Source of the DNA: Rhizophagus irregularis
Taxonomy: Eukaryota > Glomeromycota > Glomeromycetes > Glomerales > Glomeraceae
Direction: 5' to 3'
Assembly: GCF_026210795.1 (NCBI RefSeq)
Contig: NC_089440.1
Span: 682,001-746,000, forward strand
Length of the DNA: 64,000 nucleotides
A program made the translations under genes and the position numbers. Position 1 is the stretch's first letter; each line of letters starts with the position of its first letter. Shown piece after piece: positions 9,741-37,369 of this stretch. The notes under the pieces are model-generated. The model was not told the DNA's origin and ran no database searches. It saw only the letters and a list, made by a program, of their open reading frames with translations.

Positions 9741-9877
9741 TATGAACCTTAATGACATATATGATCACGTGGCGAAGTCCGTTTATCTATGGAAAGCCGC
9801 CATGGTCAAAAGTACATAGCAAAACATAGCGTGTATATGCTATGTTTTGTAGCGCGTATACGTTATATTTCATGACG

Positions 9878-9911
9878 GGTTACCCCTGTTCTGTCTGTTT
9901 CAGGGGTAACC
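9878..9911. repeat. Hairpin in left arm of element copy 1
   Basis: GGTTACCCCTG (9878-9888) and CAGGGGTAACC (9901-9911) form a perfect 11-bp stem with a 12-base loop. The identical stem occurs in the right arm at 11909-11919/11945-11955 with a 25-base loop containing GGTTAACC, and in both arms of copy 2 (35221-35267 and 37231-37264). Stem conservation with differing loops suggests a functional structure in the element ends. Confidence 0.85.
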
Positions 9912-9964
9912 TGTTGCGTTTAATACGCTATATTTCATAGCATTATATACGTTATATGTTATGA

Positions 9965-10127
9965 TGGGTACCCATTATAAGAAACGGCGGGTACCTGTTA
10001 TAAGGAATGGCGGATACCCGCTATAAGAAATGGCGGGTACCTGTTATAAGGAATGGCGGGTACCCGTTATAAGAAACGGTGGGTACTCACTATAAGAAAC
10101 AGCGGGTACCCATTATAAGAACTGGCA
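9965..10127 (+). repeat. 23-bp tandem repeat (GGGTACC...TTATAAG), about seven units
   Basis: Units follow GGGTACC, two or three bases, TTATAAG, A/G, AAYGGC. Each unit includes the palindromes GGTACC and TTATAA. The reverse-complement array is in copy 2 at about 37015-37165. Confidence 0.9.
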
Positions 10128-10239
10128 GTCAGCATATTAACTTTTGATAGACATCCATAATGATAATTATTTATTTAATGAAATTTTATTTGCAAATATT
10201 AAAATTTAAGTCACACATTTACGATTTTAAAGAAAAAAA

Positions 10240-10505
10240 TCACCATATTTATTTTTATTGAAGTGTACAAATAAAAGAAACAATAACAATAAATAAAAAA
10301 GATAAGTAGCTAATAAAAAAATGAAATAACAGTGGAGTAATAGAAAGTAATAGAAGATGAAAGGGAGTAAAAAGAGTAATGAGAAGTGATAGGAAACAAA
10401 AAGGAGAAATAGGACATAATGAGAGATGAAAAGGAGTGATGGGAGACAAAAAGAATGATGGGAGACAAAGAGGAGTGATGGGAGACGAAAAGGAGCGATG
10501 GTTGG
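10240..10505 (+). repeat. Purine-rich GGAGTGATGGGAGAC array
   Basis: Degenerate units such as GGAGTGATGGGAGACAAAAA run up to the left edge of the T-rich core. The opposite edge of the core (about 11610-11638) carries the reverse complement (CCCATCACTTCTTTTCATCTCC), so the core is bracketed by inverted repeats. Minus-strand open frames here (10255-10522) are low-complexity. Confidence 0.75.
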
Positions 10506-10506
10506 C

Positions 10507-11640
10507 TTTTTTTTATAAACAAATTTTGTAGAGAATTTTTATTTTTAATATAGGCAAAGGCTTTGTTTGATAGAATTTCATTGGGAATTTTTTTAATAAG
10601 AAGATTTTTTTTGATAAAAAATTTCGTTAGAAAATTTCTTTCATTGATAGGGACATTTCTGAGTTTTTTTTTGATGGATAATTTCGTTAAAAACTTTTAT
10701 TTGATAGAAATTTCATTGGAGAATTTTTTTTAATAAGATTTTTTTTTTTTTGACATATACTTAATTTGTTAGAGCAATTTTTTTTAACAGGAGTGATTTT
10801 TTTGATAGAGAATTATTTGAGATTTTTTTTTTTTTTGTAGAAGATTATTTGAAGAATTTTTTTAATAGAGAAGATTTTTTTTTGATAGATAATTTCGTTA
10901 GAAAATTTTTTAACAAGTGAAATTTTTTTGATAGAAAATTTCGTTACGAATTTTTTTTTAATTGAGGGAGGGAGTTTTCCTTGATAAAGAATTTCTTTTG
11001 GGAATTTTTTTAATAGGTGAAAGTATTTTTTGACGGAGAATTTTATTAGAGAATTTTTTTTTAATAGGGGGATTGTTTTTGATAGAGAATTTCATTAAAG
11101 AATTTTCTTAAATAGATTTCGCTGAGAATTTTTTTTTTTGATAGAAATTTCATCATAGAATTTTTTTTTGATAAATAATTTCATTAGTGTAAATTTTTTT
11201 AACAGGGAGATTTTTTTTGATAGAGAATTTCGGTAAAGATTTTTTTTTTAATAGGAGAGAAGTTTTTTTTTTGGTATAGAAATTCTTTTGAGAATTTTTT
11301 TTTAATAGGTGGTAAGAATCTTTGAATTTTTCTTTAATCGGGATATTTTTTTGATTGAGAATTCATTAGAGAATTGTTTGTTGAAAATTTTTTTTATTTT
11401 TTTGATGGAGAATTTTGTTTAGAAATCTTAATAGAAAATTTTATTGAAAATAGTTTTTTTTAATAAGTGTATCGAGAATTTTGGCTTGAAAATTTTTTTT
11501 AATAAAGAATTTCATTAGAGATCTTTTTTTTTATAAAAAATTTATTGAAAATTTATTGGAAAATTTTTTATTAAATTTACAATTTTAATAAATTTTTACT
11601 TCTCTTCATCTTCCCATCACTTCTTTTCATCTCCAATAAA
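10507..11640 (+). repeat. T-rich core of element copy 1: degenerate ~40-50 bp tandem repeat
   Basis: More than twenty degenerate units of the type TTTTTTTGATAGAGAATTTC then GTTAGAGAATTTTTTTAATAGG. It has no coding capacity. Nearly identical sequence in the same orientation lies at 35487-36620 although the surrounding arms there are inverted. Confidence 0.88.
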
Positions 11641-11682
11641 AAAAAAAAAATTTTTTTTTAAAAAAAAATTAAATGGCGGGTA

Positions 11683-11805
11683 CCTGATATGTGAAACGGC
11701 GGGTACCTGATATGTGAAGCGGCAGGTACCTGATATGTGAAGCAGCGGGTACCTGATATGTAGAATGGCGGGTACCTGATATTTGAAATGGTGGGTATTC
11801 GATCC
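11683..11805 (+). repeat. 23-bp tandem repeat (GGCGGGTACCTGATATGTGAA), five to six units
   Basis: The array has the same 23-base period and GGTACC core as the left-arm array but a different spacer (TGATATGTGAARC). Copy 2 has fewer units in the equivalent arm (about 35385-35460). Confidence 0.88.
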
Positions 11806-12246
11806 CTTAATAATTTAAAATTTGGTCCAAAATAAATTAATAAACCGTTATAATATAAAGCGCATACGCGTTAAATTATGTAGCGTATACGCATTGCTTT
11901 TTATGGCGGGTTACCCCTGAAATTGACAGGTTAACCCAACAGAACAGGGGTAACCTGCCGTGAAATATAACGTGTATACGCTATGTTTTGTAGCATGTAC
12001 ACGCTATGTTTTGCTACGCACTTTTGACCACTACCGCTTGCCATATTTATCCGCACGCGATACGTTCTACATTGATAAAAATAAATATTTATAAAATAAA
12101 TTGTGATACACTGATAAACAAGATATGATAATAAAAAATATTTTTTCGCTCCAGACTCACAACGGTTTCCGTTTTCTAGCTTATAAAATTATTAGTATGA
12201 TTTTTCGCATATCTATAAATTACCTTTAATATAACATTAGAAACTA

Positions 12247-12331
12247 CAGTAAGACCTCTATATAGTCACACCATATAGTCATATCTTACGATCTATATAA
12301 TCACATAGGTAATTATAAAGAAGTCCCACTG
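12247..12331. mobile_element. 85-bp pogo/Tigger-type MITE
   Basis: The ends CAGTAAGACCTCTATATAG and, on the other strand, CAGTGGGACTTCTTTATAA are imperfect inverted repeats of the type seen in pogo-like elements. TA dinucleotides flank both ends (12245-12246, 12332-12333), consistent with a TA target duplication. It sits about 250 bases beyond the 3' end of the channel gene. Confidence 0.6.
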
Positions 12332-12577
12332 TAACTAATTTATTTTATTTGTGTTAAGAATCAATTAAAGTTTTAAAGAATAAAAAAAAAGTAGAGTTTA
12401 CTGAACTTAATATCATTGACAATAATTATGCACTTTAATCGGAATAATAAATAGCTATGCACTATTTTACTTTATTTTTATAATGAACTTTTTTATAATT
12501 GATTATAAATTGGTTCTACCTCTAGAAAGAATAATACTTTATAATAAAACATAATATATCATTTATAATTATTCTAA

Positions 12578-15500
12578 TTATGGTAATCTCTTCTTTATTT
12601 CTTGCATTTCTGTTAACATATTTTGTGAGGAATTCTTCATTTCTCGTATTTCTTCTAATATATCCTGTAAAGAAATTTCATATTCAAGTGGAATATTGAG
12701 TTTTTCCATTAATTTTTTTTTCGATTCTGGAATTTTATTGATATTCCATTCACCCTTATCAATCATTTTTTTAACTTTTTTACGAGTCTCATCAATATTA
12801 GCACAATAATATCTTAAATTAAATTTGTGTTAAATAGGTTAAATTATTTTAAAAAAATAAACAAATAGTATATTTTACATACACCACTTCAGGAAACCAG
12901 TCATTCCAACGTCTTTGATGTGGTAATAGGTAAAATAACTCAATTTTAGCCAAATACTATAATAAATAAAATTTTAGCAATTTAAGAAAAATTTCATATT
13001 AAATAGTTATTAAATTAAATACTACCTCTGCTCTTGTTATCAAAAATGAGTCTTCGTGATCTACGGTTGCCTCACTAAATAGAGTGATAAATACATTCAG
13101 AATATAAATAGCCATAAAGAATGCGAACAAAACCACCAATATCATAAGTGTAGGATTTTCTTCATATGACCAATTAGAAAAGGAACTTGTATCGCCTACA
13201 TATTTAAACAAGTTTAATAAAGTTAATTAAATTTTAATAATAGATACTTAATTAAAAATTCATACCAGTGAGTAATAAACATGTTGCAAAAAATGAAGTA
13301 GCGAAGGTTGTAAACATGTTTGTGTTCTCATCAGGTTTTTGTAAAATAAATAAATTGGGATTAATGCTAGTATTATTTTCAAATACTTGATAATTAGGGG
13401 TCAAATTCCAAGGATTGTTAGGGTCATCATTAACTATACGTTCATCTAAGGGATAATTCATTTTTGGTGATAATAAAGTATAAAATGCATATGAAAAACT
13501 TATTAAAATAACCATTATAAAGTTTGTGAAGAAAAACATGACCCGTTTTGCAATTCTAATGACGATTGCATAATATGTTTCATAATATTTGAATACCCTA
13601 AAAAATGACATTAATTTTAAATTTAAAAGCAGACACGAAAAAGTAATATATGGAAGTATCTTCTCATGATCATTTCCTTGAAGCCACAAAATTGAAGTGC
13701 AAATAGAAAATACGTATACAAATAAATCTATATAATGATAAATATTTAGTTAGTACTTTCTCGAGTTTCTTATTAAAATTCTCTAAAATGATTATAATTT
13801 TATACCATATATTTTCCCAATATCAAGAATCCATTTAATAGGATTATAAATAAACTGACGAACTTCAAAACTTAGATAAATAAATTCAAATAAAGTTGAA
13901 ATAATAAAAAGTATTTTTTGAATATCTACATATTCTTGTTGAGAAATTCCGGCAGCTACATTAAAACATATAAGTAAAATTAAATATCCACTCCAAATAA
14001 ATATATGATAAACTATTCCATATTTCTTCCATTTAAAATTAAGTAATGCTTCTCCACTCCATGTTTTATAAATATCACTATCTATTGTTTCAATAAATGG
14101 ACTGGGCTGAGGCCAAAATAATTCTAAAAACCTATTGTAATCTTTTGGATAGTTTACAAAGTTAATATATGGACTTGCGAAAATAAATGATGGTGTTTTT
14201 TTAGTTATAACAGTATTAAAATCAAAATTGATAAATCTTATTATTCTATAAAAAGTACCTAAAATTAATAAAAGAATAATTAATGCTAAATACATTAAAA
14301 TAAATATTAAAGATATAATGAGAGTTAGTATTTGGGTCCTAATATTATTACGACGAAATGATTTCAAATATATAAACTGTTCAAAGAATGCTTTAAATTG
14401 ATAATCTTTTTGAGGAAATTGAAAAGAGGAAAGATGTAAACTGTTTACTATATTATAAGAGGGTGAATCTACGATAATTTCTGTTTCCAATGAGTATCTT
14501 AATATATATTCTGGGTAATGTTTATCCAGTAATGGCAAGTTAGAATTAATGATACTTAAAAACATTATGTTATTAAAATCCTTTTCAAAATAATTTATAC
14601 ATTTTTTATAAATTTCTTCTATTAATTCTAACTTATGTTCTTTAATTGCAAATTTTAATAATCCTACACCATATTTTAAGAGACTTGATTTATTATTTTT
14701 TACATCTAAAACCCATTCAACATTATATTTAAAACTCTCATGATTTGGTAAAGGTAAAGTAGGTTTTGAAAATATTTGTAAAAGTTTTGTATTATCTTTA
14801 CTGATTGAATTGAGAATTATATAATAATAATAATAGCTTAAAGAAATGGATTTATCATTCTCATTAAAATGGAAAATTAAAGGACCGATACTTGTTAATA
14901 TGATGATGTCATCGTCGTTAATTAATTTAAATCCAAGTAATGATGAAACCACTGTTAACTCTACAAACTTTACATCTCTCGTGCAAATTGAAACATTATT
15001 TTTAAAAACTTGCAGTTTAATTTTGTAATCATTACAAGTAATTCTCCATTCAATCGAATTTTGACTCGCTTTTAGTTCATATTTACTATTATAATTTGTT
15101 ATAGCTTCTTGAAATAATTCACGTACAGTATCCATATATGAATTAAGAAAAAGAATATGTAAGTGATCATACATCTTACTCATTTCCTCATTGATCTTAA
15201 CGTCATTATCATATTCTTCATTGGTCATCGTTTTTTTCAAATCAATTTTCCAAATATTTCCATCTATAAATACGAATATGTGTTCACTTGTAGCTCGAAT
15301 GACACTTGGAAAAAATTCTTTTGGTAATAAGTCATTCTGTTTTTTTAATTGGCATAAATACTTTTTCCAATAATCCTTCATAATCATGGAATCCGAAAAT
15401 AATAGAGAACATAAAGTAGGATATTTGTCAAGCATACTTGGTTGAATATCTAAAAAAAAGAATGTTGTTAGTAAAGTTTAATAATATAATAATGCGATGT

Positions 15501-16326
15501 ATAACCTTTAAAAAAACAAAATACCATTATTTAAATTCAAGGAAGCAACTGGAATTTTCAATTCAACTGAATAAATAATGATTTTATCCTTGATTCTCGT
15601 ACAAATAAACTTCTCATTGTCGATAATTCGGATATTTTCTCTGATATTTTCTCCAATATTTTCGTCAATCACCAATATTTTTGTACTCATAAAAGTATTA
15701 AGATCCCATTTATAAATAGATTTATTTGAAAATAAATAACATTCATTATTGCATGATATGCTAATCAACCTAAAATCTTCAAAATATGTAGATATTTGAA
15801 ACGTTCCTACGCAATACCATATATTATTTTTAGTTTGCGTGGAATAAAATAAAAATCTTTTATGTTCATCATTGTATAAAATAAGAACACGTTCTGAGTT
15901 AAAGGTACAGTAATCGTAACTTTTACGATTATTCCAATTTAATTTAATTTTTTGGTCACATTTCATATCGTATATTTCTAATGAAGGTATGATTAAATAC
16001 AATCAGTATTAGTTGCCGTAGTTATCTTATAATATTTTTAAGAATTTTAACTTACTTAAAGTTCCATTTTTACTGATATACACAAGTTCTCCATTATTAG
16101 AAACACACATATAATGTAAGTCAAAATTCGCTTCTTCACTTAATTTAACCGTATTTTCTATAAATGGGTCTTTAAATAGAATATTCCAACAAACAATCGA
16201 AAGATCTTCATGACTATAGATAACGAGATAAACTTCATTTCGCGAAACTTCTATTTTTATAATGGGTTCAATTTTATCGTCAATTTTTTCATCGATTTCT
16301 AAGGTAATTTCATTCATTTGACTCAT
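12578..16326 (-). CDS. TRP-like cation channel with beta-propeller-like N-terminus (seven exons)
   Basis: Exons: 16326-16056, 15977-15525, 15449-13806, 13727-13266, 13195-13026, 12956-12883, 12812-12578, giving about 1102 residues. Every junction is GT-AG, keeps frame, and several introns show CTAAC branch sites. Residues 1-400 hold beta-propeller-like strands (VYLVIYSHEDLSIVCWN, SIYKWDLNTF). Six or so membrane segments follow: about 613-644, 718-741, 753-772, 790-806, 851-875, a pore helix with TFATSFFATCLLLTGD (about 927-945) and S6 with TLMILVVLFAFFMAIYILNV (about 960-980). The tail is a charged coiled coil (LQDILEEIREMKNSS). This is the ion-transport domain layout of TRP/polycystin-type channels; such proteins with WD-like N-termini are expanded in Rhizophagus (family knowledge). 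Ion and gating are unknown. The pore is created only after joining exons 4 and 5. No lesion was seen. Confidence 0.85.
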
Positions 16327-16880
16327 GGAATAATAAGGAATTTTAATTTTGTAAAAAAAGAAACGTTCTTAAAGCAACCACCTGTTACAGTTTATTTAAT
16401 ATAAGCTAAAGTAATACAAAGATTTATTGTTGGGAAAGCAAACTGGGAAATTGTGCATGATAATCATTCTGACGTAATAAATTTGGCATATCACGCTAAT
16501 AATTATTATGTCGTACTAAAAAAAGCGAACCAATTACATTTAAATCTTCCTTTTGTAGAAACTAATTAATTTGGGGCACATTAGATACTATTATGTTAAA
16601 CAATTATCAAAGTGTCCCGCATAACGGCTAATCTTATTGTGTGATTATGAACATTAAGTTGTGACTCATTTTGACCAAGCTCGGTTATAATATTTTTTGG
16701 AAAATTATATCTACATTGTTTATTAGCAAATAAGGAAAGGACTAGACCGTTCTATTGTGTATAACGTGACTTTTTATGTGATACCCTACATATTAATTAT
16801 GTATTTTCTGCCAATAGCATTATCACCGTTAAAACGGTGGTAATTAAATTTTAGAATAAATTGCCAGTCTGACTGTACGA
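16327..16880. other. Intergenic; short orphan coding-like stretch
   Basis: An open stretch of about 45 codons on the plus strand (16430-16569, including ANWEIVHDNHSDVINLAY) has normal amino-acid complexity but no start or recognised relative. It may be a transposon relic. The rest holds nothing I recognise. Confidence 0.3.
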
Positions 16881-16885
16881 TCAGC

Positions 16886-16940
16886 TAAACTGTACTGTAC
16901 GAATAATCATTGTACGATTTTTTTTTCGTATAGTACAGTT
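16886..16940. repeat. GTACAGTAC palindromic element, short copy
   Basis: AACTGTACTGTACGAA and TTCGTATAGTACAGTT form an inverted repeat with one mismatch around a short AT-rich centre. It is related to the larger palindrome at 18095-18209. Confidence 0.7.
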
Positions 16941-16944
16941 CTTT

Positions 16945-17230
16945 TTTCACGTGATTTTGTCACGCGTATATTTAATCTTGATTATCGCAGATAATCTTTT
17001 TTTCATCCACTTTTCGACTTTTCGTGTATTATTTTTTTTTCTTTTGTTCTCTTATTTTTTGAAATCATCTTTTTTTTAAGACTCGGAATGACTTTCTTAG
17101 AAAAGTCTAGCGCACAGTTCAAGGTAATTTTTATTTTTTTTTATTATTTTACTGTTTTATTTATTTATTTATTTATTGCTTTTTACTTTTGCTAACTGTT
17201 TTTTTAGACAATTTCAACATAGTTGCTTCT
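16945..17230 (+). promoter_or_regulatory. Promoter-like region with a spliced-leader-like first exon
   Basis: TCACGTGAT (16947-16955), a TATATTTAA about 20 bases on, and a pyrimidine-rich leader precede an ATG at 17088 (MTFLEKSSAQFK). The codons run into a donor GTAATTTTT at 17124; the intron has GCTAACTG then TTTTTTAG ending at 17207. After splicing the frame stops within four codons, so this looks like the 5' part of a non-coding or micro-ORF transcript rather than a normal gene. Confidence 0.4.
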
Positions 17231-17379
17231 TGCTGAAATATTTTAGCTACTAAGGAACTGAAGTATGTTATTTTTCCTATTATTTTATTGTTTTCTGTTA
17301 CTTCTTTGATTTTTAAACTTATTAATCATTTCTTCTTTTTCATGGGCGGTGGTTTTCTTTTTTTATTTCTAATTTTTTT

Positions 17380-17730
17380 TTTGTTACTGTCACTTCCTAA
17401 CATCTTTCTTAGACACCTTTTTTTATTTTTTTTCGCTCTTGACGCTTTCTTTCTTTTGTTTTCTGTCCTTGACGCTTCCTTTAATTTTTTTTCATTCCTG
17501 ATACTTCTCTTTTATTGTTTTCCATATCTGATACTTCTACGTCTATTTGTTTTTCGTTTCTGACGTTTCCCATTTATCATTTTTTATTCCTAATATTTCC
17601 CTTTTGTTGTTTCTCATCCTTAACACCTTTCTTTCATTTTTTTCATTCCTGGTACTTCACTTTCATATTTTTAATTCCTAACAATTGTTTCTACTCATGA
17701 TATTTTCCTTTCGTTGCTTTTCTGTTCCTT
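17380..17730 (+). repeat. Degenerate T-rich tandem repeat with TGACRCTTC cores
   Basis: Units of about 28-35 bases carry cores such as TTGACGCTTTC, TTGACGCTTCC, CTGATACTTCT, CTGACGTTTCC and CCTGGTACTTC separated by T/C tracts. The open frames 17288-17563 and 17515-17700 are consequences of this composition. Confidence 0.65.
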
Positions 17731-18094
17731 TTCATCTTTATCCTATCTCTATTTTTTACTCTTTTTAATTTAAGAGGCAGTTTTGAAAATAAAAAAATAT
17801 TAAATTAATCGTATTTTATAAAAATATTAAATAAATACCCTTTAAAACTCATTAGAAATAAAAAAACTCCGTCAAATTGTAAAAAGAATTTTATGTAAAT
17901 CAGTAATATTAAAATAAATAAAATAATTTAAAATAATTTTTTATTAATCATTATTACGATTGAAATTTTATTAAGAAAAGTGCAGTTACAAGTGAAAAAC
18001 GTATAGGTTAAAAAGTTATTATTTGAACTAAGTTAATCAGTATGTCAAAAATTATTTACATGCCTATTATAAATATAATTACAAGTATAGTAAT

Positions 18095-18209
18095 AAACTG
18101 TACTGTACGAATTTTTTTAATTTATCATACAGTACAATATAGCGCTTTATATAGTACTGTATTGTACTGTACGATAAATTTCGAAAAAAAAATTCGTACA
18201 GTACAGTTT
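18095..18209. repeat. Nested palindrome of GTACAGTAC units (MITE-like)
   Basis: AAACTGTACTGTACGAA followed by seven T (18095-18118) is perfectly inverted at 18186-18209. Inside it TACAGTACAATA and TATTGTACTGTA form a second inverted pair, and another half unit follows at about 18215-18232. The whole can fold into a long cruciform. It resembles a miniature inverted-repeat element; no clear target duplication was found. Confidence 0.75.
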
Positions 18210-18273
18210 AGCCAATCGTACAGTACAGTTTATCTCTATACCTAAGTAAATCTGTTGTTCTTTTATTAATAAA

Positions 18274-20434
18274 CTAGCTGGATGCCCGCGTTTCACGCGG
18301 GCCTGGCTAATTAAAATTATGAAAATTAGTTGTTATAATAGTTATAATAGTTATAGTAGTTATTTTAAATAGGATGAAATATTTCATTATAGACAATGTT
18401 TTTGTTTGGCAGGTTTCACCATTACCTGCAAGAACTTTGACATGTTAATATGAAGTAAAAAATGTGATATTTATTTTTTAAAGAAAAAGAAACATCCCAT
18501 GTACCACTAAAATTTACTTTTTTTAAAAAATACGTTTTTTATTTTATTTAAAGAATTTTTTTTTAAAATACAAATTATTATGATCTTGTTGGCGTACAAA
18601 GCTACATAATGTTAAGTCACTTTAACATGTCTAACTTTCTTTTTGATCTACCTATTTCCTTTAGTAATTATACTCTTTAACAGGAAAATAATTATTTAAT
18701 GAATAAATTGGTGACAAACAACCTGTTGATTAACAATTTTGCATTTTTAATTATTTTATTTTACGTTAAATATATTATTATTCTGCTATTACTTTTTTTT
18801 TTTGTAACATAGAAAAGTTGAAAAAAATATTGTAGAATACTCAATTAATTAAATCTCATTTCAAATTTATTTACAGAAAAAAAAACAATTTTTTTTTGTA
18901 TTACAGCAGGATAAAATATGTGAAAATATTTATAATTTAATAAATTATTAAACTTTTGCATGGCCTACGCGTTTTTTTGATGGAGGTGTAGTTGCAGGTG
19001 TAGTTGCAGGTGTAATAAGTATAGATGCAGATTCTTCCTGTTCTTCCCGCTCTTGAATTTCTTCTGTCACTATGAGTGTGGATATCTGAGAATTTTGTTA
19101 ATTTAGTTAATTCAGTTGGCTGAAAATTTTTGTAGTAATTTCATGTTTTCCTAGTACAGGTGCGGATTGTTCAATTTTTTTATGGATTGCAGATCTCGTG
19201 GCTATCATATGTGGTGATGATGATGATGATGTAGAAGACCAGGGCATTTTCCTGGTAGATTGATATAAAATTTGATTGTTGAATACGAATAAAATTAAGA
19301 TTATATAGTTCTGGATAAAACTTTCCTCAGTTGATGTTAAAGCACCTGTTTTAACATTGTAGTCTGACTTTTTAAGCAGCTTTCTTTTGGATGGAATAAT
19401 GTGATTGGAATCTCAGTTGGTTTATCTTTACCAATATAGTACATTCAAATTGTATACCAAGATTCGTAGTAAGTACTAAATCTGATACCGAAGCTGTGCC
19501 TACAACATTTATAGGTAAAATAGTAGCAGTGGTTAAGATTAACTTGATACACATGCAGATAATATATGTATAATATAGTGTGAAATTTAATTTTAAAACA
19601 GAATAATAAATATATTTAAAAAAAATTAAAATAAAGTAATTTCTTACATCAATTTGATTATCGACAGGTCCAATTGCAAATTTTGAATTTGCAATAGATA
19701 AGACTTGTCCCTCTTCCAATTTTGGTACATAGCATGGTTTGTTTTTCTTTGTTAAGAGGATAAAACACTGTAATATTAAATTCTTGGGCAACTGAGTTAC
19801 CCTCAAGTCTTGTGTGTCCAGTGACCATTCCTATGAAAATTTTACCTGATGTTTTCTCCCTATATTCTGAAATATAAGGATTGTTGATAGTTGGGCAGGC
19901 ATTAAAAATTAAAGCATAAAATTTTTTAAAAAAAAGGTGTAATTTTTTATAAAGAAAAATTTTTAAAAAAAAGAAAAGGATTTTTTTTTCGTGTGGGAAA
20001 TCCAAAAAAAAACTGAAAATTAGAAAATTCGTCGTATGAGAAAATTCAAAAAACTGAAAAATAATTTTTTTAAAAAAAACAATGACGATTTCTAAAAAAG
20101 TCAATGATGATTTCTCATGTGAAGAATTTCATTGTCACGATCAAATTGCTTAATAAATTTTTTATTTTATATTACAATTACTGATTAGATTAGTTTCATT
20201 TCGTTGCTGTAAATTTGTTCTACGCCAACAGCCTAATTAAAAATTGTATTGGGATTAGGGTCTGCCCAATTAAGCTAATCAATAGCAAATGATGCGCCAC
20301 TCCGAATCTTATAAAAATCTGTAGCACAGGGCGCAGACACATGATGCTGGACGATCCAATTTAAATCCACCTTTTTATGCAGGGTAGTCTTAACGTCACG
20401 GTCGCACAATGCTTTTTTTTATAGATATAGAAGA
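18274..20434 (-). mobile_element. Probable non-autonomous Helitron
   Basis: On the minus strand the element would begin TCTTCTATATCTATAAAA (from 20434, preceded by A) and end with the hairpin GCCCGCGT-GAA-ACGCGGGC (18302-18284), six bases, then CTAG (18277-18274) followed by a host T. TC at the 5' end, a GC-rich hairpin just before CTRR at the 3' end, and insertion between A and T without duplication are the diagnostic Helitron features. The 2161-bp element encodes no Rep/helicase, only a broken ORF, so it would need help from an autonomous relative. The choice of TC at 20434 is the less certain end. Confidence 0.7.
18948..20390 (-). pseudogene. Helitron-borne ORF, possible OB-fold single-strand-binding-like protein (broken)
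   Basis: Coding-like blocks follow each other on the minus strand: DLNWIVQHHVSAPCATDFYK and LNWADPNPNTIF near 20370-20230, with two in-frame TAG stops; SGKIFIGMVTGHTRLEG and SVAQEFNITVFYPLNKE near 19850-19750; a one-base frameshift in an A-run near 19745; then CYVPKLEEGQVLSIANSKFA and VDNQID to a donor at about 19647. After an intron, ILPINVVGTASVSDLVLTTN follows up to 19372. The tail (19250-18948) is S/T-rich with ITPATTPATTPPSKKRVGHAKV-type sequence, read in more than one frame. The alternating short strands with EEGQVLSIAN suggest an OB-fold such as the RPA-like proteins some Helitrons carry. That functional reading is inference; I do not recognise a family with certainty. Confidence 0.55.
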
Positions 20435-20584
20435 TTATCTGTTACCAGAATAAAACTCAGAAATTATTTCTTTTTTACTTTCAATGTATTTTCTTGTATT
20501 CTAAAATGATAAAAATACAAATATATAACGTTAATGATCAAGTCATCATGCGTCTATTATAAAAATATAACTTGTGAGTTATGA

Positions 20585-20611
20585 TATAATAATAATAATA
20601 ATAATAATAAT
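20585..20611. repeat. (TAA)n microsatellite
   Basis: About nine TAA units in a row. The surrounding 20.44-21.0 kb is AT-rich with no gene seen. Confidence 0.9.
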
Positions 20612-21525: not shown

Positions 21526-21587
21526 TTTTTTTTTTAAGTGGATGCAAAATCAAATTTGGATACATTGTAAAAGGATTATAATTGTAT

Positions 21588-22938: not shown

Positions 22939-22999
22939 CTTGAAAATATTTAGTTGAAATTGTGAATATTATTAAATATTTCATTATAATGTAACTTGG

Positions 23000-23012: not shown

Positions 23013-23039
23013 AAAAAAAACCAGTCTCCTGAATTCATG

Positions 23040-24890: not shown

Positions 24891-24901
24891 TTTTTTTTCT
24901 T

Positions 24902-25372: not shown

Positions 25373-25399
25373 CTTGAAAATATTTTAAATATTTCGTTA

Positions 25400-26430: not shown

Positions 26431-26436
26431 TTATAA

Positions 26437-27010
26437 AAAAGTGAAAGTCAAAATGTTAGTAAGACATTTCGTTAAATAAAAACAATCAAAGAAAACTCTG
26501 ATATCCACTAAAATTCACAGTCCAAAGTGCGGTCGCTTAAAAAAAAAGTGAAAAATTAAAACGTTAGTAGAATGTTCATTAAAGAAAATATAATCAAAGT
26601 AAATTCAGATACCCACTGAAAAATCTAAACGTCCAAGATCCGGTTACCTAAAAAAAGAGAAATTGAAGAAATTCCACGCGTCCAGATCTGAAGAATAAAC
26701 TAGCATTCAAAAAAGATAAAAATGAAACGTTAATATTCGTTTCATTAAAGAAATACCTATTCAAAGAAAACTCCATACTGAATTACCCAAAAGAAATAAA
26801 TTAAAAATTAACTTGCAATTCCCACCAAAATTCCACGTGCCCAGAGACTCAACCATCTAAAAAGAAAATTGAAATCTGAAACATTAGAAAACGTTATATT
26901 AAAATAAACAATTAAGAAAAAAATTTTCCTACCATATTCCCATTTCCCATAATCCGTCTAAAAAAAGTAAAACCAAACTATTAGAACTATTAGAAATTGT
27001 TTAAAGAAAA
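26437..27010 (+). repeat. Degenerate ~100-130 bp tandem repeat
   Basis: Six diverged units start with AAAAAAAGTGAAA and then have AAAACGTTAGTAG, a CATTAAAGAAAA step, ATCAAAGAAAACTC, and CACGCGTCCA or similar (starts near 26437, 26540, 26650, 26712, 26858 and 26953). A short palindrome (AAAAAGAGAAA...TTTCTCTTTTT, 27076-27106) follows. No coding potential was found. Confidence 0.6.
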
Positions 27011-27540
27011 AAAATGACTAACTTACTGAAATGTCGCGTCCAGGAAGGCTCAAGTCTAACAGTGTCTCTATAAAAAGAGAAAAAGAAATATTTCTCTTTT
27101 TACCTTGAGCCTGAGGAAAGTCGGAACTCGGTGTTTCTACAGAGATACAAAAGAAAAATTCCCCCTCCGGCTATTTTTACAACAAAAAAATAATCAAAAT
27201 ATATAGGGGTACGCATTACTGGCGTTGCATAAAATTAATTTATTAGTCATATGATGTAATCATGTAATGAAAGGAACCAATTATGAGCAGACAGGCGACA
27301 CTTTTTGTGTGACCATCGACAAAACATATATAGTCCTTCGCAGCGCTTCGGACTAATAATAACTTTTTTTTACTTATTTTTTCGGGAATAAATGTTTTCA
27401 GGAAAATAAATATTAATGTATATTATAAACAACGAGATAAATTTAATAAAAATCAGTTAATTCAAAATTTATCTAGAAATGATTTCTTTATCATGTATTT
27501 ATTATAAAAGCAAATAAAATAACCAAATAGAATAAATAAT

Positions 27541-27660
27541 TTTTCGGCGAAATGTCGGCGAAATGGAATTCGGCGAAACGTCCTTTCTGGGAAATGGTTT
27601 CGGCGAAACGTCCTTTCGGCGAAATGGTTTCGGTGAAATGGACTTCGGGATACCGTTATT
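27541..27660 (+). repeat. TTTCGGCGAAATG minisatellite
   Basis: Six to seven alternating units of TTTCGGCGAAACGTCC and TTTCGGCGAAATGGT. The core TTTCGGCGAAA is itself nearly palindromic. A weaker relative (GTCGGCAAAAT-type) occurs at 33490-33600. Confidence 0.85.
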
Positions 27661-28560
27661 CACTGTATATCAATGTTAGTTTTGAATTCGGGTTTTCTAA
27701 TTTAATTTGTTGATCGTCAGATCCCCTGTATTATAAAAGGCTCATATTTCCGGAATTAATAACGGAATTTATCGAATTATTTTCATTTTCCGTAAATGGA
27801 TCCGTGAAAGGCTCATTTTATGGAGTTTTTATAGAAATAACGGATAAAATTTTTTATAGAGATCATCACCTGATTTTTGAAAGCGATAATAAAATGTAGT
27901 AGTAACTTCATGAGTTTTATTTATTTTATTCCTTCTCATAATTAAGAAGTCAAGCTCTAAGTTTATTTAAAATATCAATCTCAAAAATTCGAAATTTATT
28001 CTTATTTCAAAAGATAAATTGTAAAAAATTATAATTATTTAAATGAGATTTACATTCCTTATATCTCGTTTTGACCAATTTATTATAGTACCGATTTTAC
28101 TGGGACAAAATCATAAAAATCGAAATTTAAATGACCATGCAAATTTTAATTTTTTTTTCTAATGGTGGCTTTTTTCGAATTCAAAAAATTTTCAATACTT
28201 TAAATCTTTTTTTTTCTTTTTTTTTTATAAATATTTTAAATTTTAATAAATAGTTTTCAATTATAAAAATAAATTTAAATAATTCTGCGCATAAGATAAT
28301 AAAAGTGAATGAATTGTAAACTTTTATGTCGATTTATGAAACTGCATAAATGACGTGGAAAGATAGTATATTACTATATATTAAAAAGAAAACTGGTTAA
28401 AATTTATTTTTTAAAATCATGATTAACAAATTAGTCAAAAATAGATCAAAATTAATATTAAATATTATCGAAAAATAGAATAAATATAATATATTAAAAT
28501 TAATATTAAATATTATCGAAAAATAAAATAAATAAGTTCTTGTATCATGGAAGATTAATT
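27660..28560. other. Intergenic, nothing recognised
   Basis: AT-rich sequence. The last 350 bases match the 3' flank of the other ML genes (ACTTTTATGTCGATT near 22192, 28321 and 32074), so the duplicated unit extends past the genes on this side. Confidence 0.6.
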
Positions 28561-28638
28561 TTGTTTCGTTGATATAAAATGTTAAAGCATTTAGGAACAC
28601 TCAGCGATATGGCATGTACGCTCAGCGATTGGATAAGC

Positions 28639-29097
28639 TTACTCTCCAGATTTCCCTCCAGATTCTGCAAATGCACAGGCAATTGTTCCAAGTTCTTCAT
28701 CCCAAATAACAACGTAAGTATCGTATACTTTAGAAAGTTTAGGTGTTGGAACATCTTTTGCTGTAATAGTAAATTTTTCTCCTGCTTTATATGACTTATC
28801 AAAAGGCAGCAAATAAATGTCACTTAAGGGAACACTGCCGTCCGCATCGAGATAACTAACTCCAAGTGAAGTTTTTTTTGCGATTATAGCATGACTTAAT
28901 TTACCGGAAACAGTATAAGTCGCGGGTTTTTTAGAAACAATAGGGTCAGGTGTGACTGTTACATCGATTTGTTCAATTGCTGGCATACTACAGAGAACAA
29001 ATTTAGTTTCTCTTTTACGAAGTTGGTGTGGAACGGCATTGATCATGGAAAATGTAGCTACTAATAAAATGAAAACAAAAATATAATTTCGGATCAT
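28639..29097 (-). CDS. Secreted ML-domain (NPC2/MD-2-like) protein, copy 3 (C-terminally truncated)
   Basis: The protein has 152 residues, with signal peptide MIRNYIFVFILLVATFSMIN followed by LRKRE as in copy 1. The domain holds the first cysteine in FVLCSMPAIEQ, DVTVTPDPIVSKKPATYTVS, GEKFTITAKDVPTPKLSKVY and the closing cysteine in IACAFAES. The frame stops at TAA (28639) just after SGE. In the same frame the following bases still encode AYPIAER then CHIAECS to a second stop, matching the YPIA tail of copy 1, so the stop is a recent truncation of the tail rather than of the ML domain. The 5' flank, including the TATA box, is closely similar to copy 1. Likely still functional as a lipid-binding protein. 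Confidence 0.83.
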   Translation of the reverse strand: MIRNYIFVFILLVATFSMINAVPHQLRKRETKFVLCSMPAIEQIDVTVTPDPIVSKKPATYTVSGKLSHAIIAKKTSLGVSYLDADGSVPLSDIYLLPFDKSYKAGEKFTITAKDVPTPKLSKVYDTYVVIWDEELGTIACAFAESGGKSGE

Positions 29098-29109
29098 CTT
29101 GAAAATATT

Positions 29110-29930
29110 TAGTTGGAATTGTGAATATTATTAAATATTTCATTATAGTGTAACTTGGTCTTTTTATAAAGAAAAAAACAGTCTCCTGAATTCATGGAAT
29201 ATCGTATTTCCGCTTTTTTGAAAAAAATTTCATTTTTTAGAACGGACATTTTATAACGCAAATCAACACGTGTAAATTTTCGGGTTGAAATCAGAATTGA
29301 TTTAGGATCGTCTGTTATATTTTAAAATTCGGAAGAGCAATTTGGTGATCATAAATTTAGCATAGACAACTTATTTATTTAATTTTTACGTTTTTGCATG
29401 CATGAATAATCTAATTCGTGCCAGCAGAATTAAAACTTTTGTGTATCAAAAGATTCGTTGTGTAACAATACTTTTATCATAAGTCATGCGATTAGATTTT
29501 CGCCATTCGGGCCGGCACTATAGTATCGATTTTTTTATTCGATAATCAAGTAAAATCGATTCTGATTTGATTTTTGAATTTTGATTAATTCGAATTTTGT
29601 AGAATCGATTCCAATTCTCATTTCGGGATAAATTCCAAATTTGTTAAAGTTACTGAGTTGCAAATTAATTTTAACACTCCGATTATGTCTATAAAAATAT
29701 TTATCATACTTATGGCGTCAAATGAATTCCTTTTTCACTTAGAATTTAAGTGTGTCAACCGAAAAATCATAAATAAAAATCATTCTATCGACGCATACTT
29801 TTTCCTACATTTAAGCTAATGCAATAATTATGCAAATTAATAAAATTATTTCAAATTATCAGACTAATTTTTAATTTAACAAGTATTTTAATCGATGTAA
29901 TGAAGTTTCGTATTAAATTTTCCAAAGTAA
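29110..29930. other. Intergenic, duplicated segment shared with 22940-23760
   Basis: The order of shared blocks is the same as upstream of ML copy 1, so this is a segmental duplication including gene and promoter. No additional gene was found. Confidence 0.75.
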
Positions 29931-30389
29931 GATATGGTAAAGTGTATTAACGACTGTAGATACTAGACCTTAATCCTATCTTTTATAGCTGTTATACAAA
30001 AATATAAATTTTGTAATAAAAAAAGGGTCGACTAATAATAATAAGCCACGTTAGTTTTTTTTCGTAAAGAATTTGTAATACTTATTTGAAGTAGATAGAA
30101 AGCTGAAATGTTTTATTTGAGATTGTTTGTACTAGTAATCAATTATTTATATATATTCAAATGTTCAAAATTAAATAAATTAAATATGAAATAAAATATA
30201 TAATATAAAAATATATGTAAGTATAAAATATTTTATCACCTTGTATTTTAATAGACCTCTTTTATAATAAAACCCGACGCTATATCCTCATGAATAACTA
30301 TCACGCAAATCACTCAAGATGATCGTCTAAAATTATTAAATATTAATAAAAATTATAATTTTTGTCTAAAAAAAAATTAAAGAAAAAGA

Positions 30390-31365
30390 TTAAGTGTCAG
30401 GATAATGAGTGTCAGGATTTTGAACTTTCGGGATTATGATTTATCAGGATTGTTATAACGACATTCCAATCGTCGGGATTTTGAACGGCTCTCATTATTA
30501 TTAACAACCAATACTCCTATTTTCATTGAATTTTTATAGATTTAGTTATTTTATTATTATATTATCTTTATGATATTGTATTATTTTATGCATATTGATT
30601 TTTAATTGTATTATTTTAGTTAGAATTTATAGATATATTTTACAATTATTATTGGCGCAGGGCAACATGTCACCTAAGACTACTGGCAAGTTGTAAATTG
30701 TCCGGTATAACGCTTAATCAAATTATCTGTTGGAATTTGCGTTATAGACATCACTCAAGATTAAGGAGGTAGAAAGATTGTCAGATTTTTAGGTTTTAAA
30801 TCCCAATATCATCAAACTCAATAATTTCTCAAAAGAAAAAACTTTTTTAAGAGTGAGGCAACAGTAAAAATTTGTATTGATTATCAACACATCTTAATAA
30901 AATTTCTCATACAATTTATTTTCGAAACCCTCATTTTAAAACGTATAAACTATTACCTTTTAATCGTAAACTATTCCTTTATTTTCTGTTATTATCTTGT
31001 ATTTAACGCGAATTCATGAATAAAAAAAATAAATGTAAAATTTTGAGAAATGATGACGAGAAAAAAAATATACATTGAATGCTAATGATTGGAGTGGTTT
31101 TGGTACGAAATCTCGAAAATCATTTGAATGACTGACACAGGACCGACAACAAAATCTCGACAATCCAAAATCTTGACAAATCAAAATCCTGACAAATCAT
31201 TATACCGACAAGTTGATTATCCTGACAATTTTAGAACAAAATTATAAAATTTACCACATTTAAACTAAATATTACATATTGCAACAAATTATTTTATTAG
31301 AACACACATCATTAGATTTACAAAATTGTCGATATAATGACTTGTCGAGATTCTGTCGTCGATCT
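30390..31365. mobile_element. Element with inverted arrays of GTCAGGATTTTGA
   Basis: The left array (30393-30486) has GTCAGGATAATGAG, GTCAGGATTTTGAA, CGGGATTATGA, ATCAGGATTGTT and CGTCGGGATTTTGAA. The right array (31134-31225, and weaker to 31365) has the complements (CAAAATCTCGACAA, CAAAATCTTGACAA, CAAAATCCTGACAA, TTATCCTGACAA). The interior of about 650 bases is AT-rich and non-coding. It is the same repeat family as 21010-21525. Confidence 0.5.
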
Positions 31366-31394
31366 TGTGTTTATTACTTAATGAATACTACTAT

Positions 31395-32320
31395 ACTAGT
31401 TAGTCTATTCAGCCCTAACTCGTGAAACAACTAAATGAGAACTATTTATACATTTGTCACCCAACCCTAACTTAAAAAGGAAAAGATCGGGTCCACATCT
31501 TCGTGTCTATGCATTGACCTTTCATTACCTTCCAAAAGGGTCTAAAGCAAAAATTCCCAAGGCCGGCCAAGAACATTGGCATAAAAAGCCAAGGGATAAG
31601 GATTATCTTCATTTTACAATGCGAATCAAAATATGTAAATTTTTTGGGTTAATTCCAAATTTGTTAATTTTTTAATACTTTATGATATATCAAACCCCTT
31701 CCTTTTGCAACATTTCTTATCGAATATTTGGGAAATAAAAAATACATTGAAGTTTAGCAATTAAAATAAATTTTAGTAATTAAGAAAAATGAAACATTTT
31801 CCAAACTTTTGGGTGATATTAGGATAATATTTTAAATTTTAATGCAATAAAGCTTGAGATAGAAGTATTAAATAGATTAATAGTAGATTATTTATTTTGA
31901 ACTGAATGCTTTAAATTTACAATATTTTATAAAATGAAATTTGACTATGATTTTTGGTAATTGGATAGAGTATTATAATATCACAAAACTGTAATATTTT
32001 TAATTTTAATAAATAGTTTTTCAATTATAAAAATAATTCTGCGCATAAGGTAATAAAAGTAAATGAATTGTAAACTTTTATGTCGATTTATGAAACTGCG
32101 TAAATGACGTGGAAGGATATAGTGCTATATTACTATATATTAAAAAAAACTGGTTTAAAATTTATTTTTAAAATCATGATAATAAATTAGTCAAATACCA
32201 TTCTTTTCAAAAGTAGATTTGAAAATAAATACATTATATTAAAATTAATATTAAATATTATCGAAAAATAAAATATATAAGTCCGCTAGCGACGGTAATT
32301 TTTTTCGTTGATATAAAATA
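31395..32320. other. Intergenic, duplicated block plus AT-rich spacer
   Basis: A block at 31400-31740 matches 25455-25720. It contains a 73-codon plus-strand open frame at 31454-31675 with a basic composition (KRKRSGPHLRV). The other copy of the block has lost the middle of this frame, so I do not treat it as a gene. Confidence 0.5.
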
Positions 32321-32360
32321 TTAAAGCATTTAGGAACGCTCGGCGATAGGGTATACACAC

Positions 32361-32801
32361 TCAGCGATTGACTTTAGTAAATACACAGGCAATTGTTCCA
32401 ATTTCTTCATCCCAAATATTAACGTAAATTTGGTATACTTTAGAAAGTAAAGGTGTTGGAACATCTTCTGCTGAAATAGTAAATTTTTTTCCTGCTTTAT
32501 ATGACTTATCAAAATACTGCTTATAAGGGTCACCTAAGCGAACAATGCCATCCGCAATAAAATATGTAACCCCAAATGTAGTTTTATCTGCGATTATAGC
32601 ATGACTTAATTTACCGGAAACAGTATAATTCGCAGGGTATTCAGAAACAATAGGGTCAGGTTTGACGGTTACATCGATAATATCAGTTTTTGACATGCAT
32701 GAATGAAATTCAATTTTTCCTTTACGAAGTTGGTGTGGAATGGCATTGACCATGGAAAATGTAGCTAATAAAATGAAGACAAAAATAAAATTTCGGTTCA
32801 T
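32361..32801 (-). CDS. Secreted ML-domain (NPC2/MD-2-like) protein, copy 4
   Basis: The protein has 146 residues, with signal peptide MNRNFIFVFILLATFSMVNA. Cysteine pair: FHSCMSKTD near residue 35 and IACVFTKV near the end. Other matches: DVTVKPDPIVSEYPANYTVS, GKKFTISAEDVPTPLLSKVY. The basic site is reduced to LRKGK. The frame ends at NR, but in another frame the next bases encode IAECVYPIAERS followed by a stop, so a frameshift has removed the YPIA tail seen in copy 1. The 5' flank keeps the TTTATAAAAAG box. The ML domain itself looks complete. Confidence 0.83.
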   Translation of the reverse strand: MNRNFIFVFILLATFSMVNAIPHQLRKGKIEFHSCMSKTDIIDVTVKPDPIVSEYPANYTVSGKLSHAIIADKTTFGVTYFIADGIVRLGDPYKQYFDKSYKAGKKFTISAEDVPTPLLSKVYQIYVNIWDEEIGTIACVFTKVNR

Positions 32802-33069
32802 CTTGAAAATATTTAGTTGGAATTGTGAATATTATTAAATATTTCGTTATAATGTAATTATCAATAACTTGATCTCAGAGTTACTGTCTTTTTATAAACT
32901 TAGAAAATACAGTCCCCTGAATTCCATAAATACCGCCTTTTAAATGGATGAATAATTATAGCGTTAGAATGAGAATTTGAATAATCAACTTTGCAAATCA
33001 ACACAGTATCAACACGTGAAAATTTTCCGCCAAATTTGAGTTGCAAAAAATTAATTTTCAATACTTTGA

Positions 33070-35124
33070 TTTGCAGAACGGCCATTCACCGAAATACCAA
33101 AAAAATTACCGACTAGTTATAGACTTATAGTAACTGAATTGATATTAATACTGACCCTCGTTTATGTTTCGTACTGCATATTGGCCCTTAAATAAATTCA
33201 GTTAGCTGCGCTATTGCGTCTTAATTTCAAATTATTTTAAGTAAAATTTACTGCTTTTAAAAAAAATTTATAGGCATATTTAAGCTTTTTTACTTTCATA
33301 TTACAATAATTATTCAGTAAACAATATCCAATTTTTTTAATAGTTTCAATATTGTAAAAAAAATAAAATAAAAATTGGTACTGGTTTCACATGATAAATG
33401 ATTATTACTTACTCGGTGAAAACCTTTTTTCGTTTTTAGTGATTAGTAAAAAATAAAAGATAATTTCAAAAAACCTTTAATGAAAGGTAAAAGTGTCGGC
33501 AAATAAACTATCGGCAAAATTGTGATTCGTTGAAATAATTTCGGGAGGATGTGATGCTGGTGAAATAGCAAGTCGGCAAAGTGAAGTCAGCAAATCTTAA
33601 GTAGGTAGATTGACAATCGAGTTTGTGAATTGATCAAAATAATTTATAGATCTTTTCTCTTTTTGAAATCATCTACTGATAGTAGATCACTTATTACCTC
33701 TCTATCAGCTATGTATTTGTTACTATCTGTCTACATCGAAGTCACGTGCTAGTAACAGAAATATGTGTTATGTTTCGTAAAATAAAGTGAAACAAAGTAT
33801 ATATGTAAATTTAAAACTTATATATATAATTTTAGTGTATATTTATTCAAAATAAACAATATCTTAAAATAAATGGAACAATACAAATAAATAAATGCTA
33901 ATACATAATAAATTTCATAAATCCTAACGAAATAAAATATTGCTGCCTCTACCGGCGATCTGCAATATTACCGATAAACTAAAGTTTAATTTAGTTACTA
34001 AACTAAACTATGACTAAAATAAACCTCTCTCTAAGTCCTTTTTTCCTCACCGTTCGCCCGTTCTATATATGTAGTTCGTAATTTCGGTATAAATTATACC
34101 ATGTATAAGTTAAACTTCGTATAAATTACACTGAGTGTAAATTAAACTAAGTATAAGTCACGAAAAGTATAAGCTACACCGTTACACTGCTGATCACTGA
34201 AATCTTATGCCAATTTCTTGAACTTTCGATGTGGCGCAAATTCGCGTAACATATTGCTAGTGAATACGGATTATATTTATCATACTTATGGTATCGAACG
34301 AATTGTTTTTGAAAACCTTCATCACTGAGAAGTTTTTTTTTTAATAAATGTGATAACCAAAAAAATAATTCTTTTATTGTCATGATTAATATCAATGTAA
34401 TTATACTTTTTTCCTTTAATTGCAATTACATTATTTGAACTAATGGCATAATTATATATCAGATATAAAGTAATTAGTAATTCAAACTAAATAAGATTAT
34501 TTGACAAATTTTAATTTTAACAAGTATTTTAATTGACATTTATTTGAATTTTTCAAAAAAAAAAAAAATATGGTAAACTGTAATTATCTTTTATGTTACA
34601 CAAAAATAAATTTTTTAATTCTAATAAAAAGAGGATCGACTTAACAAACGATCGTTAACTATAATAAGCCGCGTTAATTCTTTTTTTCCGTAAAGAATTT
34701 ATAATACTGTATTTGAAATAGATAGAAAACTAGAAAACTGAAACCTATTATTTAATTAAAATTGTTAGTAATCATTATTTATATATGTTCAATATTTAAA
34801 AACAAATATGAAATAAAGTAAATAATTTAAAAATTAAAATGTATAAGAAACCATTAAAAATATATGTAAGTATAAAATATTTTATCACCTTGTTTTTTTT
34901 TATAAATATTAATTGGGAAAATTAGGTAAAAGATTTAAATTTATATTAACTGGTAAACTGACAACATTTTATTAAGGTCGGTCGATTTCTTTGTCAATGT
35001 ACAGTACAAAAGGGATTACCCTCGCTCGGAGTTCTGTAATAATTACTAAAAGCAGGTGCAAAATATTGATATCTAGGTTCAATGTCATCATTTGAGATCA
35101 TTTGCCACTATAACTCATTTAGAT
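33070..35124. other. Intergenic with duplicated fragments and short tandem repeat
   Basis: 34260-34540 is a diverged copy of 29690-29930 and 23530-23760. At 34078-34170 degenerate 16-18 base units (GTATAAATTACACT, GTATAAGTTAAACT and variants) are repeated about six times. 33490-33600 has GTCGGCAAA-type units. The minus-strand open frame 34174-34425 overlaps the duplicated block and is not conserved there, so it is not called. Confidence 0.6.
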
Positions 35125-35486
35125 AAGTGTTATGGCAAGCGGTAGTGGTCAAAAGTGCGTAGCAAAACATAGCGTGTACACGCTACAAAACATAGCGTAT
35201 ACACGTTATCTTTTACGGCGGGTTACCCCTGTTCTGTTGGATTAACCTGTCAATTTCAGGGGTAACCCGCCATAAAAAACAGCGTGTATACGCTACATAA
35301 TTTAACGTGTATACGCTTTATATTATAACGGTTTATTAATTTATTTTGGACCAAATTTTAAAATTTTCAAGGGATTGAATACCCGCCGCTTCACATATCA
35401 GGTACCCGCCGCTTCACATAGTGGGTAAACGCTATTTCACATATCGGGTACCCGCCATTTAATTTTTTTTTAAAAAAATTTTTTTT

Positions 35487-36620
35487 TTTCTTCTTTTTTT
35501 TATAAACAAATTTTGTAGAGAATTTTTATTTTTAATATAGGCAAAGGCTTTGTTTGATAGAATTTCATTGGGAATTTTTTTAATAAGAAGATTTTTTTTG
35601 ATAAAAAATTTCGTTAGAAAATTTTTTTCATTGATAGGGACATTTCTGAGTTTTTTTTTTGATGGATAATTTCGTTAAAAACTTTTATTTGATAGAAATT
35701 TCATTGGAGAATTTTTTTTAATAAGATTTTTTTTTTTTTGACGTATACTTAATTTGTTGGAGCAATTTTTTTTAACAGGAGAGATTTTTTTGATAGAGAA
35801 TTATTTGAGATTTTTTTTTTTTTTGTAGAAAATTATTTGAAGAATTTTTTTAATAGAGAAGATTTTTTTTTTGATAGATAATTTCGTTAGAAAATTTTTT
35901 AACAAGTGAAATTTTTTTTGATAGAGAATTTTGTTACGAATTTTTTTTTAATTGAAGGAGTTTTCCTTAATAAAGAATTTCTTTTGGGAATTTTTTTAAT
36001 AGGTGTAAGTATTTTTTGACGGAGAATTTTATTAGAGAATTTTTTTTTAATAGGGGGATTGTTTTTGATAGAGAATTTCATTAAAGAATTTTCTTAAATA
36101 GATTTCGCTGAGAATATTTTTTTTTTGATAGAAATTTCATCATAGAATTTTTTTTTGATAGATAATTTCGTTAGTGTAAATTTTTTTAACAGGGAGATTT
36201 TTTTTGATAGAGAATTTCGGTAAAGATTTTTTTTTTTAATAGGAGAGGAGTTTTTTTTTTGGTATAGAAATTCTTTTGAGAATTTTTTTTAATAGGTGGT
36301 AAGAATCTTTGAATTTTTCTTTAATCGGGATATTTTTTTTGATTGAGAATTCATTAGAGAATTGTTTGTTGAAAAATTTTTTTATTTTTTTGATGGAGAA
36401 TTTTGTTTAGAAATCTTAATAGAAAATTTTATTGAAAATAGTTTTTTTTTAATAAGTGTATCGAGAATTTTGGCTTGAAAATTTTTTTTAATAAAGAATG
36501 TCATTAGAGATCTTTTTTTTTATAAAAAATTGATTGAAAATTTATTGGAAAATTTTTTATTAAATTTACAATTTTAATAAATTTTTACTTCTCTTCATCT
36601 TCCCATCACTTCCTTTCATC
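35487..36620 (+). repeat. T-rich core of element copy 2
   Basis: It begins TTTTTTTATAAACAAATTTTG then TAGAGAATTTTTATTTT, like copy 1 at 10507, and follows it nearly base for base, with small length changes in T-runs, to the CTTCTCTTCATCTTCCCATC edge. Confidence 0.9.
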
Positions 36621-37014
36621 TCCCATCGCTCCTTTTCGTCTCCCATCACTCCTCTTCGTCTACCATCACTCCTTTTCATCTCTCATTATGTCCTATTTCT
36701 CCTTTTTGTTTCCTATCACTTCTCATTACTCTTTTTTACTCCCTTTCATCTTCTATTACTTTCCATTACTCCTCTGTTATTTCATTTTTTTATTAGCATC
36801 TTTCTCCTTGATCATTGTAATTTACTTATCTTTTTTATTTATTGTTATTGTTAATTTTATTTGTACACTTCAATAAAAATAAATATGGTGATTTTTTTCT
36901 TTAAAATCGTAAATGTGTGACTTAAATTTTAATATTTGTCAAATAAAATTTCATTAAATAAATAATTATCATTATTGATGTTTATCAAAAGTTAATATGC
37001 TAACTGCCAGTTCT

Positions 37015-37165
37015 TATAACGGGTACCAGCCGTTTCTTATAACAGGTACCCGCCGTTTCTTATAGCGGATACCTGCCGTTTCTTATAACGGGTACCCGCC
37101 GTTTCTTATAGCGGGTACCCGCCGTTCCTTATAACAGGTACCCGCCGTTTCTTATAACGGGTACC
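37015..37165 (-). repeat. 23-bp GGTACC tandem repeat in copy 2, about seven units
   Basis: Reverse-complement form of the array at 9965-10127: CGGGTACCCGCCGTTTCTTA units. Units differ slightly between the two copies, so the arrays have evolved after separation. Confidence 0.88.
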
Positions 37166-37369
37166 CGTCATAACATATAACGTATATAACGCTATGAAAT
37201 ATAGCGTATTAAACGCTATTTTTTGCAACAGGTTACCCCTGAAACAGACAGAACAGGGGTAACCCGCCGTGACATATAACGTATACGCGCTACAAAACAT
37301 AGCGTATACACGCTATGTTTTGCTACGCACTTTTGACCATGGCGGCTTTCCATAAGTGTCGCCGGTATT

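Follow-up and report, generated by a model that had tools for sequence, protein, structure and literature searches.

IS3EU elements of rust fungi have 6 bp target duplications and TAYGG..CCRTA ends (PMC12730594), and a second account likewise gives IS3EU TA..TA ends and usually a 6 bp duplication (PMC10045372). For Galileo, the relevant passage proposes that the long ends draw recombination (PMC3573991), and an account of Drosophila inversions that arose from staggered breaks and end joining notes inverted duplications of single-copy DNA at the breakpoints (PMC3355041). Many repeats of Rhizophagus irregularis are stated to be unclassified (PMC11075540). Here we describe a short element of R. 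irregularis, two copies of which lie in a 64,000-nt stretch of its genome (the window; NC_089440.1 of GCF_026210795.1, positions 682,001-746,000, forward strand). In one of them, copy 1, the internal core is flipped relative to the arms; this flip is real but an ordinary structural mutation, and no role for it is suggested.

The element is like IS3EU in its TATGG..CCATA ends and in its 6 bp target duplications, which are exact in 20 of the 28 elements compared, and unlike it in that the elements with these ends that were checked yielded no IS3-type transposase. Large relatives with two cores share with Foldback and Galileo their long, internally repetitive inverted ends, whereas the ends and target duplications differ. 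Like the Drosophila inversions of that account, copy 1 has an inverted duplication at its breakpoints, but this duplication is 3 bp long, belongs to a 1.1 kb segment and lies inside a transposon, while the Drosophila duplications given there are about 1-7 kb.

Orientation of the core in the window and in the genome

Copy 1 (9788..12045, plus strand; C12:691788-694045 in the genome) is 2,258 bp long from TATGG to CCATA, and is bounded on both sides by TTTATC (9782-9787 and 12046-12051), a 6 bp target duplication. Its arm A consists of an outer part (A1, 9788..10164, plus) with the terminal inverted repeat, hairpins and GGGTACCCGCC-type repeats, which has no match in the large relatives, and an inner part (A2, 10165..10501, plus), which holds an array of ~23 bp GGAGNGATG units and is common to the large relatives. 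The inverted segment follows (10502..11634, minus), comprising the T-rich core and 37 bp of the array in the direction opposite to other copies, and after it come an A/T tract and then arm B, which includes its terminal repeat (11635..12045, plus). Copy 2 (35131..37354, minus) has the normal order of arm B', core and arm A', with the core at 35493..36623 (plus); its end falls at 37354, not at 37353 as in the preliminary description, if the ends are written TATGG..CCATA. AAGTGT precedes copy 2 and AGTGT follows its ...CCATA, and its right target duplication thus departs from that of most copies, being 5 bp unless the last A of the element is counted as shared. Of the two 6-bp flanks described before, TTTATC therefore holds as it stands and AAGTGT only with that shared A.

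Strand-resolved alignment of the two copies by blastn placed the core of copy 1 (10506-11634) on the plus strand of copy 2 (35493-36623) at 97.5% identity, and both arms on the minus strand: arm A (9788-10501) against 37354-36603 at 89%, arm B (11721-12045) against 35456-35131 at 90.5%, and a further arm B block of 112 bp at 11640-11751. This upholds the initial observation that the arms are inverted between the copies while a core of ~1.13 kb keeps its strand, and disposes of the case in which the core of copy 2 had been inverted along with its arms. Counted by substitutions, the copies are 98.5% alike in the core, 93.8% in arm A and 90.5% in arm B; the higher likeness of the core than of the arms suggests exchange between subfamilies.

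To decide which copy is the odd one, we searched the genome (146.7 Mb, 32 contigs). The scans for the short element scored the best 40 of 486, 40 of 67 and 40 of 65 candidates, and copy counts are accordingly lower bounds; the first scan gave 298 matches, part of which were listed, and the tally of flipped copies covers the loci examined. We then retrieved 27 loci (20 + 7) that contain parts of the short element, classified them together with the two window copies, and scored each core for its direction against the adjoining arm blocks. Some places listed in one scan only, such as C23:3051828, stand outside the count, and L042 and L044 have no core in the fetched stretch. Counting both orientations over genomic copies, as the preliminary description proposed, gave 29 of 30 cores that run opposite to their arms, as in copy 2, and one, that of copy 1, that runs with them. 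The 29 include L016, although its outer flank resembles a large element and it may belong to one. No second flipped copy was present among the loci examined, and at 29 to 1 the two orientations are far from comparable in frequency in the short elements. Copy 1 is therefore the exceptional arrangement and copy 2 the normal one; the inversion seen earlier was genuine, but it had been assigned to the wrong copy.

Junctions and origin of the flipped segment

The joins of copy 1 can be read against L011 (C22:920103-922344), an unflipped copy with its own 7 bp target duplication. From arm A to arm B, L011 has the array GACGAAAAGGAGCGATGG-GAGATGAAAAGAAGTGATGGG... and then the core, and in unflipped copies the distal core end reads AAAAAAAAGCC-AATAAAA, followed by arm B. 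In copy 1, the left join (10501..10502, GCGATGG^TTGGC) reads GACGAAAAGGAGCGATGG-TTGGCTTTTTTTT and the right join (11633..11635, CATCTC(C)^AATAAAA) reads CTTTTCATCTC-C-AATAAAA, with CAA/TTG at both. The flipped segment spans 10502-11633/11634 and includes the 37 bp of ~23 bp array (11598..11634, minus), an A-side piece that the inversion moved to the B side. The left junction pattern matched once in the 146.7 Mb at ≤3 mismatches, in copy 1 itself (control, 0); the right one, a pattern of low information content, matched 13 times at ≤3 mismatches (control, 10), and only the match in copy 1 is exact. We also considered a derivation of copy 1 from the second core of the large elements and rejected it, its array-to-core-start junction occurring nowhere else.

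In our reading, inverting GAGATG...GCCAA of an L011-like copy, with CAA also kept on the arm B side, would yield both joins of copy 1. Neither join would then involve a loss, the only change being a 3 bp inverted duplication, and a cut shifted by 1-2 bases would be equivalent. Within 60 bp of the two L011 breakpoints, inverted matches reach 8 bp at most, which is also the median for 300 random pairs of L011 positions (95% point, 11); the breakpoints show no inverted homology above chance, nor was any inverted repeat pair predating the inversion found above chance in the short element.

The flip of copy 1 is thus very probably the product of one past two-break inversion in an L011-like copy, closed by end joining, in a family whose two window copies are non-autonomous and IS3EU-like; both copies were presumably moved by a transposase acting in trans. 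An internal segment of ~1.13 kb would have been inverted once, in copy 1 or in a copy ancestral to it. The first break would have fallen within the ~23 bp array (GCGATGG^GAGATG) and the second at the outer core edge, within GCCAATAAA, and the ends would have been rejoined in reverse, with 3 bp gained on balance, which fits end joining with fill-in of a staggered break. Because the short element has a single core, it has no long inverted core pair and its flip needs another route; the clean joins and the 3 extra bases fit two-break end joining. It is this route of repair that we infer, the flipped state, the junctions, the chance-level homology and the unflipped L011 being observed.

The ancestry of copy 1 agrees with this reading in part. 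By substitutions in the core, L011 is nearest to copy 1 (12/1,045), followed by copy 2 (17/1,124), and in the non-array part of A2, L011 and copy 1 differ at 0/176 positions. In arm B, L011 has 13/376 substitutions and is fourth by score, the best being L039 with 10/374. Several points weigh against the reading. First, L011 lacks ~73 bp of the core, so that copy 2 and others score above it, with copy 2 first. Second, L011 is not nearest in the outer arm A, where it has 33/375 substitutions against 19/362 for L039. Third, the arms are repetitive and of mixed ancestry, and sequence has probably been exchanged between copies. Fourth, the right junction has a 2 bp match (CC) that suits microhomology or template-switch repair as well. 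At last, the junctions are known from one assembly only.

Some of these points bear on the possibility that the core was replaced and not inverted in place, a reversed core having been copied from another element by gap repair after excision or by template switching. The mixed ancestry of the arms would suit such an event, as the CC microhomology suits template switching, and copy 1 has the type-1 base at 9/11 diagnostic sites of the core, yet an arm B that is type-2 like (the two groups were picked by us). Nevertheless, the unflipped L011 shares this core mixture (type 1 at 9/11 sites, type 2 at one and a gap at one) besides being the nearest core by substitutions, and because it has the same diagnostic bases, no foreign core is necessary for an inversion in place. 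The flipped piece moreover bears the 37 bp of A-side array, and the joins show no loss. We consider replacement unlikely.

An assembly error within copy 1 is more improbable still. The core is repetitive and A/T-rich, and its junctions come from a single assembly, but both are precise to the base, with a 3 bp inverted duplication and part of the array carried across; there is no N anywhere in the window, which speaks against an assembly join inside the core, and the 6 bp target duplications are intact.

The short inverted repeats that bracket the core of copy 1 had been proposed as the route of inversion, the substrates being GGAGNGATG at one edge and CATCACTTCTTTTCATCTCC at the opposite one. 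In the unflipped copies whose junctions were read, both pieces are neighbouring units of a single array on one side of the core; in copy 1 they lie apart and opposed because the break fell inside that array. Of the two alternatives offered at the outset, an ongoing switch or a single past event, the second therefore stands for the short element, and a core that keeps inverting by way of short inverted repeats at either edge has almost no probability: a substrate exists in copy 1, where the 37 bp piece is now inverted relative to the array, but this repeat is a product of the inversion, the breakpoint homology in L011 is at chance level, 29 of 30 cores have one orientation, and the flipped junctions are unique.

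Ends, target duplications and candidate transposases

The short and large elements share the ends TATGG..CCATA. The end motif had 156 matches in the genome and 0 in the backward control, the check for partners covering the matches listed. The outermost ~107 bp of arm A align in inverted direction with the outer end of arm B of other copies, at about 78-89%. By our reading, the eight elements without an exact 6 bp target duplication comprise four with 7 bp (L011, L002 inner, L027 and L033 inner), L002 outer with 8 bp, copy 2 with 5 bp, L013 with 6 bp and a mismatch, and L007 with no match; L004, the inner element of L003 and a second short element in L023 stand outside this count. Judged by ends and target duplication alone, the family would be IS3EU-like, with the 6 bp duplication, the TAYGG..CCRTA ends and inverted repeats of >30 bp that mark IS3EU. 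A literature search found no paper linking IS3EU with Rhizophagus.

No transposase with TATGG..CCATA ends was found among L046, L047 and five loci with rve matches. Such matches are plentiful (the best 150 of 458 candidates were scored), and the five loci had no TATGG..CCATA ends under our filter. There was no long frame in the elements checked for frames (L021, L023 and L046); the element L046:101-6450 spans 6.35 kb, has TATGGCAAGCCGTACTTGACAAAAG ends and contains stop-free frames of ≤98 aa. The 3.8 kb locus L047 contains a ZSWIM/MULE-like frame (PF21056, 1.4e-10; PF10551, 0.0012, below its cut-off). As an autonomous partner we rejected this MULE, which we read as a separate nested unit that has GGGTCGTC ends of its own and a duplication of 10 bp (pair I11), and three copies related to it showed no convincing TATGG end pair in the fetched stretches. 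In our reading, L047:101-3915 is a short TATGGAAAGCCGTCCTTGACAAAAG element nested in another like it, itself split by the MULE-like element. Elements with TATGG ends also lie nested in the arms or arrays of their own or related elements in L002, L003, L033 and L043. The inner element of L033 is inserted in a GATGGGAG array with TGATGGG on both sides, and a similar motif holds the left breakpoint of copy 1.

Large relatives with two opposed cores

Several relatives are larger, L027 to L030 measuring 3.5-4.9 kb by their ends. In these large elements, two opposed cores form the inner part of the inverted ends, and a single-copy centre, Arr-A2-U, lies between them. In 11 elements that were measured, the length of the longest inverted pair is 0.76-1.66 kb (89-98% identity), and in eight of them it reaches ≥1.3 kb, with tandem repeats inside. 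The two ends can be told apart as a and b, which differ by about 8-9% over 214 bp.

The orientation of the centre relative to the ends was scored in 20 elements from 20 of the 22 fetched loci, L028 and L029 being halves of one interrupted element and L033 two nested ones; L034 and L038 were fetched but stand outside the count, as do further elements seen only as positions. Eleven elements are in one state (L021-L027, L028/L029, L035, L036 and L058) and six in the other (L030, L031, L033 outer, L033 inner, L056 and L057), two have end a on both sides (L032 and L059), and L037 is unclassified. In L026 and L057 a single end is readable, and in L035 the match of the a end is no better than 92%. 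The centre sequence (A2+U) is the same in L023, L025 and L033 inner, but their states differ, and direct alignment of L033 inner with L023 clearly shows the centre turned relative to both ends. For L056, L031 and L030, the direct alignment is mixed, with overlapping repeat matches, and the state follows from the end-marker labels. In a tree built from 18 centres, at least three changes of either state label against the rest are required by the best-supported branches; here the two a/a elements were counted with the rest, L029, L031 and L059 entered with partial centres, and L027, L028 and L037 are absent.

Recombination between the long inverted ends would be a natural cause of such flips, and end conversion, suggested by the a/a elements, may blur some state labels. 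The general picture of a segment turned between inverted repeats thus fits the longer relatives, where it is the centre between two cores that turns and not the core itself. It is possible, if doubtful, that the large relatives are flip-flop elements whose ~1.1 kb centre is turned repeatedly by recombination between those ends, perhaps still today among the many nuclei within a single individual of the fungus, and that copy 1 is a rare flip in a shortened derivative. In that case, every large-element insertion would mix two isomers, and the shortened form of copy 1, with one core only, would be without the flip-flop substrate. The passages on Galileo and foldback elements make no mention of a centre in both orientations, and a phrase query on recombination between terminal inverted repeats retrieved nothing; we make no claim that centre flipping is unpublished.

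A seemingly invertible transposon core is thus resolved as most likely one accident. The case also exposes a trap: when an inversion breaks within a tandem array, the inverted repeats left behind at the edges resemble the cause of the inversion. Together, the two-core relatives, which show their centre both ways, and the one-core short form, with 1 flip in 30, provide a natural contrast, and this makes the proposition that long inverted ends drive internal flipping testable within one genome. More than the flip of copy 1, it is the both-ways centre of the large relatives that deserves attention.

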